Shown in pieces: positions 42,721-55,198 of a DNA stretch of 64,000 nt. Position 1 is the first letter of the stretch; each line of letters opens with the position of its first letter. The position numbers and the translations under genes were made by a program. The notes beneath the pieces were generated by a model, which worked only from the letters and a program-made list of their open reading frames with translations, searched no databases and had not been told where the DNA came from. The DNA is from Bradyrhizobium sp. (GTDB taxonomy: Bacteria; Pseudomonadota; Alphaproteobacteria; Rhizobiales; Xanthobacteraceae), in the NCBI RefSeq assembly GCF_030654605.1, contig NZ_JAURXB010000115.1, positions 1 through 64,000 of the forward strand, written 5' to 3'.

Positions 42721-42796
42721 GCCGCAATAGCTCAGTTGGTAGAGCACGTCATTCGTAATGACGGGGTCACAGGTTCGAGTCCTGTTTGCGGCACCA
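42721..42796 (+). tRNA. tRNA-Thr (CGT)
   Basis: Acceptor GCCGCAA/TTGCGGC, anticodon loop TTCGTAA, GGTTCGAGTCC, encoded CCA. Confidence 0.97.
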
Positions 42797-42924
42797 GTTT
42801 CCTCCTAAGATATCTAAAGATTGCTATTACGTCGGCTTGGCGTCGGACCGCGATATGAGCGGCGCATGGTCGCCGTGACGATCGGCTCTGCATACTCGTG
42901 CTGCGGAAAACGAGGACGTTGTTG

Positions 42925-44208
42925 ATGGGGAGCAATTTTAGTTGGGAGCAGGGCTTCAATAATCCACTTGTGTTGGGGAAGATTGCAGCTTGTCGAAAAA
43001 TCGGAAAGGATGCTCGCATCTCGTTCGATGCGGCTGATTATCATTTTTGGTTGCCCGTTCTTGAGTCCGCGGTACGTGCTTCCGAGAAAGTCGGCCAGCT
43101 CAAACATCGTTGCGTTGAACAAGCGCTGAACGATGCAGTTTTGACGCTGAAGGATTGCGACGCATTCCTTCGAAGATGCGATAAAGCGTTTACTCAACTC
43201 TCCTCGCGGGCCAAGACAGATTTCGTCATGGTCTCGTCGGTGACTTACACCGGCTTAAGATTGTTCTCTGGCATGAAGGACGGTGACGTCCGGCTGCAAT
43301 GGCAGCCATCACAAAAATCAAACTTCATGAGGGGTGTCCGACAATCTAGAGACGATCTGTCGGACGTCTTGCGATCTCACAAGATTTCCCAAGCGTCTGA
43401 AGGACTTACTAACGTGCTAGCACATGTGTCGGCATTTGATGCACATGAAGCGCATGCGGTCGCTACTGACTCAATTGATACTCTACGCGGCATGCTAAAT
43501 CTGTTCGTAAACTCAAAACGAGGAGTGAATCCCTTCTCGCGGATGAGCGCTCCACACGCGGTGAACCGGTTTCGCAGTGGCCCGTACCGAACAGTCCATA
43601 ACGTTGATGGCTCTATTGCTACCAAGACGTTTTGGTACGAGCATCGCTGGCTGCACGAGACACCAACGGTTAGGTTCAAGGACGGCAAAACCAAGAAATT
43701 CAATCAGAACCTGAAGGGCTGGTGGCGAAAATTGCAAGACAACCCGCTCTCCAACCACATCAGGTCGGGATTACTACGTTACTGCCGTGCTCTCGATCAA
43801 CATGACGCGGAAGCAGCTCTGCTTGGGATGTGGGGGGCGTTGGAGAGCCTAACCGGTACGCAGCGCGACAAATACGAGGTTACAGTAAGCCGGACTGCTC
43901 TGCTCTTCCTTGATAAGGAAACTGCGCGTCAAATTGCCCACCATGTGAGGTTGCGGCGTAACTCATCAATTCACGCGGTCCGCACGCTAAATCAAGAGGA
44001 GGCTGATGCGATCTTGATACACGCAGAAACGCTGGTAAGCCGAGTTTTATTTTTCTGCTTGAGCGAGGGAAAACGGTTCGTTGATGAAAACGAACTGTTC
44101 AATTTTCTCGATCTGACACTGAGTGAAGCCAAACTTAGGCGGACAATCGCGCTCTCGAAGTTTTCCGTTGAGTATCACAGCAGGAAACCAATCCCGGCGA
44201 GTGAATAA
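42925..44208 (+). CDS. Uncharacterised protein with HEPN-like C-terminal region
   Basis: Frame open from GTG 42898; AT-richer codon usage; ALLGMWGALESLTG...RRNSSIHAV (R-x4-H)...VSRVLFFCL. Confidence 0.72.
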   Translation: MGSNFSWEQGFNNPLVLGKIAACRKIGKDARISFDAADYHFWLPVLESAVRASEKVGQLKHRCVEQALNDAVLTLKDCDAFLRRCDKAFTQLSSRAKTDFVMVSSVTYTGLRLFSGMKDGDVRLQWQPSQKSNFMRGVRQSRDDLSDVLRSHKISQASEGLTNVLAHVSAFDAHEAHAVATDSIDTLRGMLNLFVNSKRGVNPFSRMSAPHAVNRFRSGPYRTVHNVDGSIATKTFWYEHRWLHETPTVRFKDGKTKKFNQNLKGWWRKLQDNPLSNHIRSGLLRYCRALDQHDAEAALLGMWGALESLTGTQRDKYEVTVSRTALLFLDKETARQIAHHVRLRRNSSIHAVRTLNQEEADAILIHAETLVSRVLFFCLSEGKRFVDENELFNFLDLTLSEAKLRRTIALSKFSVEYHSRKPIPASE

Positions 44209-44291: not shown

Positions 44292-44307
44292 TGTGACGCA
44301 TCTCACA
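44292..44307. promoter_or_regulatory. CRP/FNR-superfamily-type palindrome TGTGACGCATCTCACA
   Basis: Exact TGTGA-N6-TCACA, about 59-74 bp upstream of ATG 44366. Confidence 0.7.
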
Positions 44308-44365
44308 GAGCCATAGCCGCGCCCAGCCTAGTCTCCCCGCAACGCTGAACCACGGGAGACTTCAC

Positions 44366-44731
44366 ATGCGCAAATACTTCTTGATCACCGCGATGGTGCT
44401 GGCGTCGGCGACCGCCCAGGCCGGTCCGATACGAAGCCTGACGCTGGCATCGAACGAACAGCCGGCGGCGGCAGAGCCAGCCAAACCGGTCGAACAAAAG
44501 CCGGCCGAGGCGCCGAAGGCGGTACAAACGCCGGCCGCCAGCGAAGCGCCTGTTTATGTCGCGCGGCCTGCGGCCGTTGGTGCGGCGACCGAAGCGCCGA
44601 AGGCCGAGACCACAAATTCCGTCGCCGAGAAAGCTTCTCGGGCGACCGGCACCGAAAAGCCGAAACGCCGGCGCGAATCGACCGAAGCGCGGGTGATCCG
44701 CGAATTGAATCGCCACGGCATCTATTGGTGA
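44366..44731 (+). CDS. Small exported hypothetical protein (Ala/Pro/Glu-rich)
   Basis: Signal peptide MRKYFLITAMVLASATAQAG; conserved-looking C-terminus RVIRELNRHGIYW. Confidence 0.75.
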   Translation: MRKYFLITAMVLASATAQAGPIRSLTLASNEQPAAAEPAKPVEQKPAEAPKAVQTPAASEAPVYVARPAAVGAATEAPKAETTNSVAEKASRATGTEKPKRRRESTEARVIRELNRHGIYW

Positions 44732-44835
44732 GACGCCAATCGCGTCATTGAGAATCGTCAACGGGTCGCGCGCCATGCGCATGACCCATCACTCACGCGT
44801 GAGCCGAACTCACGGGGTTTGAACTAATCGTGAGC

Positions 44836-44851
44836 TGTGAAGCAGTTCACA
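44836..44851. promoter_or_regulatory. CRP/FNR-superfamily-type palindrome TGTGAAGCAGTTCACA
   Basis: Exact TGTGA-N6-TCACA, about 56-71 bp upstream of ATG 44907. Confidence 0.7.
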
Positions 44852-44906
44852 TCCATATTTCGCAGCCGCGGTAATACGCGAACGAAACTGAACGAGGGAG
44901 GCGACC

Positions 44907-45179
44907 ATGCCTTCAATGGACCATCAAAGCAGAATAGGCCGCACCATCGACCGCTTGGGGATTGTTCGAATCCTGCTGGTCCAGGTGATGGTTTTGCTCG
45001 CGCTGGTCGGCGCCGTCGTTCGATGGGTCAACTGGTCGTCCGAGGTCGCCTGGGAAGAATTTCTCAGCGCGAGCCGGCCGGCGCTGGCCGGCGCGAGCAG
45101 TCAACCTCACGCGCCGCCGCAGCCTCAGGCTCCGGTGCAGACCGTCAAGAGCAAGGCGGCCTGCCCCAAGAAAGCCTGA
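44907..45179 (+). CDS. Small single-TM hypothetical protein
   Basis: 90 aa with one TM helix (ILLVQVMVLLALVGAVVRWV). Confidence 0.65.
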   Translation: MPSMDHQSRIGRTIDRLGIVRILLVQVMVLLALVGAVVRWVNWSSEVAWEEFLSASRPALAGASSQPHAPPQPQAPVQTVKSKAACPKKA

Positions 45180-45199
45180 GCCAAGGCTGCGCGGGCGCG

Positions 45200-46219
45200 T
45201 TATTCCGTCACCGTCTGGATCACGCTGCTGACCGGACGGCTGGCGACGGCCGGCAGCTTCATGTCCTTGATCAGCAGAGCGTCGTATTCGGCCAGCGTCT
45301 CCAGCTGCACCTTGGCCTTCATGTGCACCACCTTGTAGCCGCCGGCCTTGAGGCGGCGCAGCAGCGTGGGCAGCGCTTCCGCGGTGCGCTTCTGCAGGTC
45401 GTGCATCAGGATGATGCCCTTGCCCGTCTTGTCGAGCTTGGTCATCACATTAGTGACGATCTGTGCGGCGTCCCTGGACTTGAAGTCGAAGGAGTCGACG
45501 TCGGTGGAGAACATCGCGATGTTGCGCGTGCCGAGATAGTCCACCGAAGCCGGGGTATGCTGCAGGCCGGGAAAGCGGAAGAACGGCGCCGGTGCGGTGC
45601 CGATCGCCATCTTGATGGCGCTGAATCCCTTTTCGATCTCTTCCTTGACCTGCGCTTCGGTCAGCTTCTTGCTGTCGAGATGCGCGTGCGACCAGGTGTG
45701 GGAGCCGACGGTGTGGCCGGCATTGTAGACCTGCTTCAGGATTTCCGGATGATAGGTGGAGTGCTTGCCGACCGGGAAGAACGTGGCCTTGGTGCATTCC
45801 TCGGCCAGCGATTTCAGTACCGAGGGCGTGGTCGGCCACGGGCCGTCGTCGAAGGTCAGCACCACTTCCTTCTCGGTGAGAAAGTCGAGCTGCTTGAATT
45901 GCTGGAAGCCGAAGCCCGGTCCGCCCGTGGTGTCGGCGACGACGACGCGGCTGACGCCGAGCGCATCGGGGTTGGCGCATTTTGCCTGCACGGGTGCGGC
46001 GGGCTTGGCGGGAGCGGGCGCGGAAAGCGCCGCGGTGACTTCGACATCGGGCACGGCCGGCTTGGCGGCGACGACCGGAAGCGGCTCGGCTTTTCGTGCA
46101 TTGACGGTTTGGGGAGGAGCGGCCGCATCCGCACGCGGCGAAGAGGTCCAGTACCACACGGCGGCGATCACGACAGCCGAAACAACACACGCGCCCAACA
46201 GGCCAAATGCATTACGCAT
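45200..46219 (-). CDS. Polysaccharide deacetylase family protein
   Basis: VVLTFDDGPWPTTPSVLKSLAEE, HTVGSHTWSHAHL, FFRFPG. Confidence 0.95.
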   Translation of the reverse strand: MRNAFGLLGACVVSAVVIAAVWYWTSSPRADAAAPPQTVNARKAEPLPVVAAKPAVPDVEVTAALSAPAPAKPAAPVQAKCANPDALGVSRVVVADTTGGPGFGFQQFKQLDFLTEKEVVLTFDDGPWPTTPSVLKSLAEECTKATFFPVGKHSTYHPEILKQVYNAGHTVGSHTWSHAHLDSKKLTEAQVKEEIEKGFSAIKMAIGTAPAPFFRFPGLQHTPASVDYLGTRNIAMFSTDVDSFDFKSRDAAQIVTNVMTKLDKTGKGIILMHDLQKRTAEALPTLLRRLKAGGYKVVHMKAKVQLETLAEYDALLIKDMKLPAVASRPVSSVIQTVTE

Positions 46220-46443
46220 CGTTACACTTTCCACAAAATTCACCACAACATACTCAAGGGCCATTAATGCAAACGAGGTCTTAACGCCCCACCAACGACG
46301 GCCGGTCCGACGAAATTATTTTTGCCAGGCGGCGCGACGAAGCGTCGTTCGCTGACGATCCCGTTCCTGAAACCGGCAGATGGGCGCGCCGTATCCTCGT
46401 CGAGACCGATGCCCGAGTGGCCGGAAACGGGGCCGGCTTTCTG

Positions 46444-46459
46444 TGTGATGGACGTCACA
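46444..46459. promoter_or_regulatory. CRP/FNR-superfamily-type palindrome TGTGATGGACGTCACA
   Basis: Exact TGTGA-N6-TCACA, about 76-91 bp upstream of ATG 46535. Confidence 0.7.
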
Positions 46460-46534
46460 GCGGCGGCGCAACCGTTCCGGCATGCTCTGGTCATCAACAA
46501 CGGGCCCGCCGAGCCGGGCCAAAGGGAGCCTGAT

Positions 46535-46813
46535 ATGACCGCCTATTTGACCAGGACCATCCGCCAAGCCGGTATCGTGCTGGCCTTCGCGGTTTCTTTC
46601 GCCGCCCTGTCGGCGACCCCGAGCTTCGCCTTCAGCGCCGAAGCGCAGCAGATGTGCACCGGCGACGCGTTCAAGCTGTGCAGCGACGAGATCCCGAATA
46701 TCCCGAAGATCACCGCCTGCATGATGAAGAAGCGCGCCAGCCTGAGCACCGGCTGCCGGGCCGTGATGGACCGCGATCTCGCGCAGAAATCCAGCAAGGT
46801 CGCCGCGCAGTAA
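46535..46813 (+). CDS. Small secreted Cys-rich protein
   Basis: Signal peptide; MCTGDAFKLCSDEIPNIPKITACMMKKRASLSTGCRAVM. Confidence 0.8.
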   Translation: MTAYLTRTIRQAGIVLAFAVSFAALSATPSFAFSAEAQQMCTGDAFKLCSDEIPNIPKITACMMKKRASLSTGCRAVMDRDLAQKSSKVAAQ

Positions 46814-47013: not shown

Positions 47014-47226
47014 ATGACCAGATTTCTTTGCATCATTCCGCTCGTTCTGATGACCTCGGCTGCTTCGGCACAGCAGCAGGGACAGGACGTCTGCGCGCGC
47101 GACGCTTCACGTTTTTGCCGCGCCCATCTCGATGGGGGCGATCAGGTCGTGCTGGCCTGCCTGAGGCAAAATCGCGCCAGGCTCAGCAAGGGATGCCAGG
47201 CCCTGCTGACGAGGCACGGGCAGTAA
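47014..47226 (+). CDS. Small secreted Cys-rich protein, paralogue of 46535 product
   Basis: Signal peptide; VCARDASRFCRAHLDGGDQVVLACLRQNRARLSKGCQALL. Confidence 0.78.
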   Translation: MTRFLCIIPLVLMTSAASAQQQGQDVCARDASRFCRAHLDGGDQVVLACLRQNRARLSKGCQALLTRHGQ

Positions 47227-52048: not shown

Positions 52049-53461
52049 ATGAACGACCTCAAGGCCCAATTTGCCCTGCTGAAGCAGACCGCCGATCCGG
52101 TGGTGGCCGCTGCGATCGAGCTTGCGGTCGAACAGGGCGAGGACCACGAGCTCAACCGCATCAACGCGCTGGACTTTTCGAAGCGGACCGGGCTCGACGA
52201 GGAACGGGTGATTTCGGGCTTTCTCCATGCTTCCCGGCTCGGGTTGTTCGACCTTTCCTGGAACGTGCTGTGCCCCGGATGCGGCGGTGTGCTCGGCGCC
52301 CACGGCACGCTGAAATCGTTGAGTCCGGATGACTATCATTGCGGCCTCTGCGCGTGCGGCTACGAAGCCTCCGTCGACGAGCAGGTCGAGGTAGCCTTCA
52401 CGGTCAATCCCCGTATCAGGCGCATCGCCGCGCATGATCCGAACTCGCTGCCGGTCTGGGAATACTACAAACAGGTGTTCTGGAGTTCGGGTATCGATTT
52501 CGACCGGGAATCCGTCGCGACGCTGGCCGATGAGGTGACGCTCGATACGCTCGAATTGCCGGCGGGCGAGAAGGCAGTGCTGTCGCTGCAACTGCCGAAA
52601 GAATTCATCATCGTGTTCGAGCCGGTGACGCATTCGGCGCAATTCATCGATGTTCAGGGTGAGCCGACCAGGGAGCGTCAACAGCTGTCACTGGTTTACA
52701 GCAAGACGCCAACGCCTACCGGCGGAACCAGAACGATGCGGCCGGGACCGCTGCGGCTGTCGCTCGACAATCAGGCCGATGTGCGAGTGCTGCCGTCTGT
52801 CTTTATCGCGGGCGATGTGATGCATCACCTGATCGGCAAGCGCAAGCCGTTCCTCACCGCCAAGCGGATGCTCTCGAACCAGACCTTCCGAGACGTATTC
52901 AAGGCGGACAATCTCAATGTAGATCAGCGGCTCAAGATCACCTCGCTGACATTCCTGTTCACCGACCTCAAGGGCTCTACCGCGCTGTATGAGAGGGTCG
53001 GCGATCTCGCCGCCTTCGATCTGGTGCGCGCGCATTTCCACGCGCTGCTGGAAATCATCTCCTCGGAGAAGGGCGCCGTCGTGAAGACGATCGGCGATGC
53101 CGTGATGGCGACTTTCGTCAGGCCGGAGCACGCGATCGTCGCGGGCCTGCGGATGCGCGCCGCGATGGACGGGCTCAATGCCGCGCGCGGCACCCAGGAC
53201 CTGGTGGTCAAGATCGGCATTCATGAAGGGCCCTGCCTCGCCGTCATGCTGAACGAGCGGCAGGATTATTTCGGCCAGACCGTCAACATCGCCGCCCGGG
53301 TTCAGAGCCTGTCGACCTCGCAGGAAATGCATATCACCGGGCCGGTCAACGATGCGCCGGAGGTGGCCGCCATTTTGCGGCGGGAGTCGATCACGCCCAT
53401 TCAAAAGCAGGCGGCATTGCGCGGCATCGCCGACAAGATCGTGGTGTACGAAATACCTTAG
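52049..53461 (+). CDS. Class III adenylate/guanylate cyclase with N-terminal Cys-rich (DUF5939-like) region
   Basis: FLFTDLKGSTALYERVGDLAAF...KTIGDAVMATF...YFGQTVNIAARVQ; CPGCGG...CGLCAC. Confidence 0.93.
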   Translation: MNDLKAQFALLKQTADPVVAAAIELAVEQGEDHELNRINALDFSKRTGLDEERVISGFLHASRLGLFDLSWNVLCPGCGGVLGAHGTLKSLSPDDYHCGLCACGYEASVDEQVEVAFTVNPRIRRIAAHDPNSLPVWEYYKQVFWSSGIDFDRESVATLADEVTLDTLELPAGEKAVLSLQLPKEFIIVFEPVTHSAQFIDVQGEPTRERQQLSLVYSKTPTPTGGTRTMRPGPLRLSLDNQADVRVLPSVFIAGDVMHHLIGKRKPFLTAKRMLSNQTFRDVFKADNLNVDQRLKITSLTFLFTDLKGSTALYERVGDLAAFDLVRAHFHALLEIISSEKGAVVKTIGDAVMATFVRPEHAIVAGLRMRAAMDGLNAARGTQDLVVKIGIHEGPCLAVMLNERQDYFGQTVNIAARVQSLSTSQEMHITGPVNDAPEVAAILRRESITPIQKQAALRGIADKIVVYEIP

Positions 53462-54418: not shown

Positions 54419-55198
54419 GTGACCGAGCGTGTGACGCTGATTACGGGTGCCTCTGCGGGCATAGGCACCGAGCTGGCGCGCGTTTTCGCATCGAACGGCC
54501 ATCGCGTGGCCCTGGTGGCGCGACGCGGGGATCGCCTGGCGACACTGGCTGACGAAATCGTGGCCGGCGGCGGCGCGGTGCCGATCGTGATTGCCTGCGA
54601 CCTCGAGCAACCCGACGCCGGTGACAGGATTGCCGCGATCCTGGCCGCCGAAGGCGTCGAGGTCGATTACGTCGTCAACAATGCGGGCTTCGGAATGTTC
54701 GGCAGGGCTGTCGACCGCGACCGCGCCGAGCAGCTCGGCATGATCGACCTCAACGTCCGGACCCTGACCGAACTGTCCCTGCGGTTTTCCGACAGCCTGA
54801 TCCGGCACCGCGGCGGTATCCTCAATCTGGCTTCCATTGCCGGCTTTCTGCCGGGGCCCGGCATGGCGGTCTACTATGCGTCCAAGGCCTATGTGCTGTC
54901 TTTCACAGAGGCGTTGCGGGCTGAGCTGGCACAGCACGGCGTGCGGGTCACCGCGCTGTGCCCGGGGCCGGTACCGTCGGAATTTCAGTCGCGGGCGGGA
55001 TTTCTGCCCGGAGTCGATTCCGTGATCCTGAATGTCACCCCGGCGGATGTCGCACAGCAGGGGTATCGCGGGCTGATGGCCAACAAGCGGACGGTGATCC
55101 CGGGCCTTGGCGTCAAGATCGTGCCGTTCCTGCTCCGGCTGTTTCCGCGCGGGTTCATCCTGGCGGCGGTCGCCCGCCTGCAGCTGCGCAGGCGCTGA
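54419..55198 (+). CDS. SDR family oxidoreductase
   Basis: VTLITGASAGIGTELARVFASNGHRVALVARR, NNAGFG, YYASKAY. Confidence 0.95.
   Translation: MTERVTLITGASAGIGTELARVFASNGHRVALVARRGDRLATLADEIVAGGGAVPIVIACDLEQPDAGDRIAAILAAEGVEVDYVVNNAGFGMFGRAVDRDRAEQLGMIDLNVRTLTELSLRFSDSLIRHRGGILNLASIAGFLPGPGMAVYYASKAYVLSFTEALRAELAQHGVRVTALCPGPVPSEFQSRAGFLPGVDSVILNVTPADVAQQGYRGLMANKRTVIPGLGVKIVPFLLRLFPRGFILAAVARLQLRRR

Follow-up and report, generated by a model that had tools for sequence, protein, structure and literature searches.

A 64-kb window (the whole stretch of DNA analysed here) from a Bradyrhizobium genome contains three exact TGTGA-N6-TCACA palindromes, each upstream of a different small gene. An earlier note on this DNA had pointed to them at 44292, 44836 and 46444 as a local cAMP- or CRP/FNR-regulated set; all three are present, and a pattern scan of the window gives no further exact match. 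The locus raises the question of what kind of promoter these boxes belong to, which regulator reads them and how far the set extends beyond the window.

Probable operators and predicted promoters in the window

Shuffled versions of the window are expected to contain 0.01 exact palindromes, and none of 100 shuffles reached three. Allowing one mismatch adds only a site at 54892, versus 0.75 expected. The three operators, their predicted promoters and the genes behind them are the following:

44292..44307, + strand: CRP-type operator 1, TGTGACGCATCTCACA, exact match, before gene 44366
44329..44334, + strand: predicted -10 element TAGTCT, 21 nt after operator 1
about 44341, + strand: predicted transcription start, operator 1 centred at -41.5
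44366..44731, + strand: gene 1, 121 aa, Sec-type N-terminus, Ala/Pro-rich, C-terminal RHGIYW
44836..44851, + strand: CRP-type operator 2, TGTGAAGCAGTTCACA, exact match, before gene 44907
44872..44877, + strand: predicted -10 element TAATAC, 20 nt after operator 2
about 44884, + strand: predicted transcription start, operator 2 centred at -40.5
44907..45179, + strand: gene 2, 90 aa, single-span membrane protein (one stretch of strong hydrophobicity), no family
46444..46459, + strand: CRP-type operator 3, TGTGATGGACGTCACA, exact match, before gene 46535
46481..46486, + strand: predicted -10 element CATGCT, 21 nt after operator 3
about 46493, + strand: predicted transcription start, operator 3 centred at -41.5
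46535..46813, + strand: gene 3, 92 aa, exported, Cys-rich

Operator 3 lies in the divergent intergenic region between gene 46535 and a deacetylase gene. The distances from box end to ATG are 58, 55 and 75 nt for boxes 1, 2 and 3, and from box start 74, 71 and 91 nt; the 56-91 bp given previously was correct in substance and mixed the two measures. With a Sec-type (44366), a single-span (44907) and a Cys-rich exported product (46535) downstream, the description of the targets as uncharacterised exported proteins holds once membrane proteins are included, and for the gene 1 product no family was found among Pfam or NCBIfam. A second small Cys-rich exported protein, weakly similar to Pfam Cys_rich_FGFR, adjoins gene 46535 at 47014-47226 and has no CRP box. 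On the other side of the cluster (42721-44208) a tRNA-Thr gene has a frame of 436 aa directly behind it. This frame matches only DUF4145, and weakly so; it may have been inserted at the tRNA.

The spacing between box and -10 element was analysed by sliding a -10 matrix along the flanks of 35 sites from five genomes which have a gene 45-130 nt downstream. The mean score was +0.4 at 21 nt after TCACA, versus -6.75 +/- 1.39 over the offsets, and no such peak appeared on the side of these 35 boxes facing away from the gene. The peak at 21 nt returned, gene calls being ignored, both in 53 held-out sites and among 15 from other genera, and was absent at the random positions used as control in this replication. 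In E. coli the class II position of CRP is a box centred at -41.5, and because the -10 hexamer starts 21 nt after the box, the box centre here falls at -41.5 as well. All three boxes carry the complete palindrome and have offsets of 21, 20 and 21 nt, operator 2 being one base off the modal spacing and the genome-wide peak lying at 21. The composite pattern GTGA-N6-TCAC-N23-A-N3-T, which joins the half-sites to an A...T hexamer, has 21 matches in this genome versus one for the control. This geometry points to activator promoters of class II, from which the transcription starts listed above are predicted.

Conservation and distribution of the sites

Orthologous promoters were collected with the polysaccharide deacetylase (45200-46264) as synteny anchor, which retrieved 54 loci, L033-L050 being the close Bradyrhizobium-type ones. 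Wherever any of the three small genes occurs in these syntenic loci a box is present. It lies 74-76 nt from the ATG in orthologues of gene 46535, 53-71 nt in those of gene 44366 and 56-83 nt in those of gene 44907, which were found in five loci. The promoter alignments, window included, comprise 17 (gene 3), 16 (gene 1) and six (gene 2) sequences, and all three show 100% conservation of the eight inner bases of the arms, GTGA..TCAC. For genes 1 and 3 the N6 core and the flanks are more variable, with conservation of 73% and 63%, respectively, for gene 1 and of 57% and 71% for gene 3, so that the half-sites appear to be under selection. Operator 2 is identical in all five orthologous promoters found, but this perfect conservation is less informative because the gene 2 orthologues all come from close relatives. 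Judged from the alignments, invariant arms around a drifting spacer are the probable footprint of a palindromic binding site with a free spacer, and the phylogenetic footprinting proposed in the earlier note thus came out in favour of the sites. TAGT(C/T)T is conserved as -10 element in most of the gene 1 orthologous promoters. The paralogue at 47014 serves as a built-in negative control, as no box was found near its start in any syntenic locus. The extended box CTGTGTGA...TCACAG, to which attention had been drawn before, is truly common to boxes 1 and 3; the orthologues do not keep it, and it was dropped as a special feature. Upstream of the gene 46535 orthologue, two loci (L047 and L048) have an additional, incomplete TGTGA half-site that immediately precedes the conserved box, which suggests tandem binding in those species.

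The proposed scan of the whole genome (5.66 Mb) for TGTGAN6TCACA yields 13 exact sites and none for the reversed-pattern control. Each of 60 other Bradyrhizobium genomes contains 4-27 exact sites (control 0-3); these counts are pattern searches, and the genes beside the sites were called with a simple codon model. Since three of the 13 sites of this genome lie within 2.2 kb, the cluster in the window is a true local one, although the set as a whole is genus-wide and not only local as previously thought. The cluster would represent one neighbourhood of an apparently undescribed genus-wide regulon serving mostly exported proteins; a search of open-access papers found no account of a Bradyrhizobium cAMP-CRP regulon. 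The 16-mer of box 2, TGTGAAGCAGTTCACA, recurs at L003 (G000:C152:4253) before a frame that begins with MPS(I/M)D as gene 44907 does. The rest of this frame bears no resemblance to that gene; it may be a relative that has decayed.

Candidate regulators

Two proteins of this genome come into question as readers of the boxes:

G000:C214:8447-9193, - strand: C214 (L020), candidate regulator similar to GlxR and M. tuberculosis CRP
G000:C169:57000-57671: L021, second CRP-like protein, recognition helix RESVNRQL

Among the CRP/FNR-like proteins of this genome only these two have a recognition helix starting with Arg-Glu. L019 (C211:67835), a CRP-like gene just beyond the window, was rejected, its helix GRSYTSRVI not being of the CRP type. 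The helix of C214, RESINKQL, is of the CRP type, and its residues GE..RS..TS correspond in the alignment to the positions by which E. coli CRP contacts cAMP. The best matches of C214 are M. tuberculosis CRP (E ~1e-38) and GlxR (E ~1e-35). GlxR of Corynebacterium glutamicum and CRP Rv3676 of Mycobacterium tuberculosis are thus its nearest solved relatives, with a similar helix (RETVNKAL), and in a published tree Bradyrhizobium CRP orthologues group with Actinobacteria (PMC5449483). GlxR has the consensus TGTGANNTANNTCACA and is mostly an activator (PMC4254451). The regulon proposed here differs from the GlxR and Rv3676 regulons in the host phylum and in its mainly exported and small membrane proteins as targets. 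The cAMP-CRP class II promoters of E. coli share the palindrome and, relative to the -10 element, the box position of -41.5, but the Bradyrhizobium targets are not carbon-source genes and C214 is only distantly related to E. coli CRP.

Co-occurrence of sites and regulators was studied in 120 genomes of the family. Outside the genus, the density of exact sites is 1.41 per Mb in genomes with a close C214 orthologue versus 0.15 per Mb in those with no related CRP (p = 1e-11, a value which ignores phylogeny), and the same trend is seen within several genera. Genomes in which all CRPs are distant ones are rich in sites too, at 1.20 per Mb, and therefore other CRPs can use the motif. The composite pattern was left out of this test, as many of its matches in the family outside Bradyrhizobium resemble coding sequence. 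An exact site is found in 15 of 25 C214 neighbourhoods outside Bradyrhizobium (L092-L116); beside C214 within Bradyrhizobium there is none. In L092-L116 the exact box often lies 45-60 nt before a gene for a small single-span membrane protein, the architecture of gene 44907. Two of these loci (L113 and L114, in G293 and G271) encode the altered helix RERANKII in place of RES.NKQL, and their genomes contain few exact sites (three and one), hinting at a change of specificity.

We consider it probable that the three palindromes are operators of class II CRP-dependent promoters belonging to a genus-wide regulon, with C214 as the most likely reader. A homodimeric, most likely cAMP-loaded CRP-type activator would bind each palindrome, centred about 41.5 bp upstream of the transcription start and overlapping the -35 region. 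By contacting RNA polymerase it would switch on three separate genes for small exported or membrane proteins. Binding by C214, activation and cAMP as its ligand are inferred, as are the starts at about 44341, 44884 and 46493 and the physiological role of the targets.

The same class II promoters could instead be read mainly by L021, or by L021 and C214 together, which we regard as rather unlikely. The L021 helix is of the CRP type too, and genomes with an L021-like protein and no C214 orthologue have 0.73 sites per Mb, versus 0.15 in those with neither. This density is lower than with C214, however, and the L021 neighbourhoods contain an exact site in none of 21 cases, compared with the 15 of 25 for C214. 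In addition, L021 has Met for Thr at one cAMP contact, and of the solved proteins T. thermophilus CRP and Clr are most closely related to it. As sole regulator L021 is accordingly the weaker candidate.

Clr of Sinorhizobium meliloti is a cAMP/cGMP-responsive CRP-like activator of class I and class II promoters (PMC10127613), and in this respect a rhizobial counterpart of the proposed regulator. Its box GTNNCNNNNGNNAC (PMC10127613), however, fits none of the three sites: GTGACGCATCTCAC, GTGAAGCAGTTCAC and GTGATGGACGTCAC each fail at C and/or G.

That the boxes belong to the FixK/FNR or NnrR type and respond to oxygen or nitric oxide is very unlikely. FixK2 and NnrR of Bradyrhizobium diazoefficiens belong to the CRP/FNR superfamily and share the register of the palindrome, FixK2 also activates from about -40.5 (PMC5582078), and the present genome encodes FixK/FNR-like proteins (L015 and L017). 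The FixK2 and NnrR regulons, however, are defined by the box TTG(A/C)-N6-(T/G)CAA (PMC5582078), by oxygen and NO signals and by respiratory and denitrification targets, and in L015 and L017 the recognition helix does not open with Arg-Glu, unlike that of CRP. The boxes are of the CRP rather than the FNR/FixK type because the G and C which separate GTGA..TCAC from TTGA..TCAA, replacing the outer T and A, are invariant in the orthologous promoters. The former alternative of cAMP or CRP/FNR regulation can thus be narrowed: conservation, fixed -10 spacing, enrichment and CRP co-occurrence argue for CRP-type operators, and the invariant G and C set these apart from the FNR/FixK type. Chance palindromes without function are an explanation of negligible probability, given the enrichment, the arm-specific conservation and the fixed 21-nt spacing.

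Probable target proteins and the proposed cAMP link

The genes downstream of the sites recur across species. Exported caspase-like proteins are among them, three assigned to Peptidase_C14 by Pfam (L004, L223, L239) and further ones by their common start (L118, L128, L130, L155, L224). Other targets are exported proteins of the OmpA family (L006), DUF2147 proteins (L228 and L236) and small membrane proteins with a single span. Exported Cys-rich relatives of gene 46535 occur as well (L126, L144), and paralogues of gene 3 in G002 and G022 likewise stand behind an exact box. L228 and L229 (G000:C145:4542-4611) are divergent genes for related exported proteins, of which L228 matched DUF2147. They have facing CRP-type half-sites and one promoter per direction, and a relative of gene 46535 is found nearby.

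An N-terminal signal or membrane segment is predicted for 12 of 15 own-genome targets versus 23 of 56 window genes (p = 0.008), a comparison that is only indicative, with a hand-picked target list and one window as baseline. The enrichment of signal peptides that had been suggested as a check therefore goes in the expected direction, within this limit.

The earlier note had also mentioned the class III cyclase gene at 52049. Its nearness to the boxes is no evidence, because the genome has 15 such cyclases and there is no operator at 52049, and the argument was discarded. In other Bradyrhizobium genomes class III cyclase genes with an exact upstream CRP box do occur (L136, L150, L161, L175), and for L136 and L150 a -10-like hexamer follows the box at 21 nt. 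The target in G002, G022 and relatives carries an FGE-sulfatase domain fused to the cyclase (assigned by Pfam in L136 and L161 and by similarity in L150). Feedback through these boxed cyclase genes is possible.

Taken more widely, we see about even chances that Bradyrhizobium runs a cAMP-dependent "envelope and secretome" regulon by means of a GlxR-like CRP whose lineage clusters with the actinobacterial CRPs. In this reading class II promoters would drive the genes for exported caspase-like proteins and for OmpA-like, DUF2147, Cys-rich and single-span ones; in certain species the regulon would also include a cyclase gene of its own, giving feedback. Bradyrhizobium is rich in class III cyclases, this genome having 15, and the papers searched are silent on the processes that the cAMP of these enzymes controls. 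The present analysis gives a testable answer: it names a candidate receptor and an operator, describes the geometry of the promoters and lists mostly exported targets, several of them caspase-like, and so bears on what cAMP controls in a genus of major importance in soil and in symbiosis.
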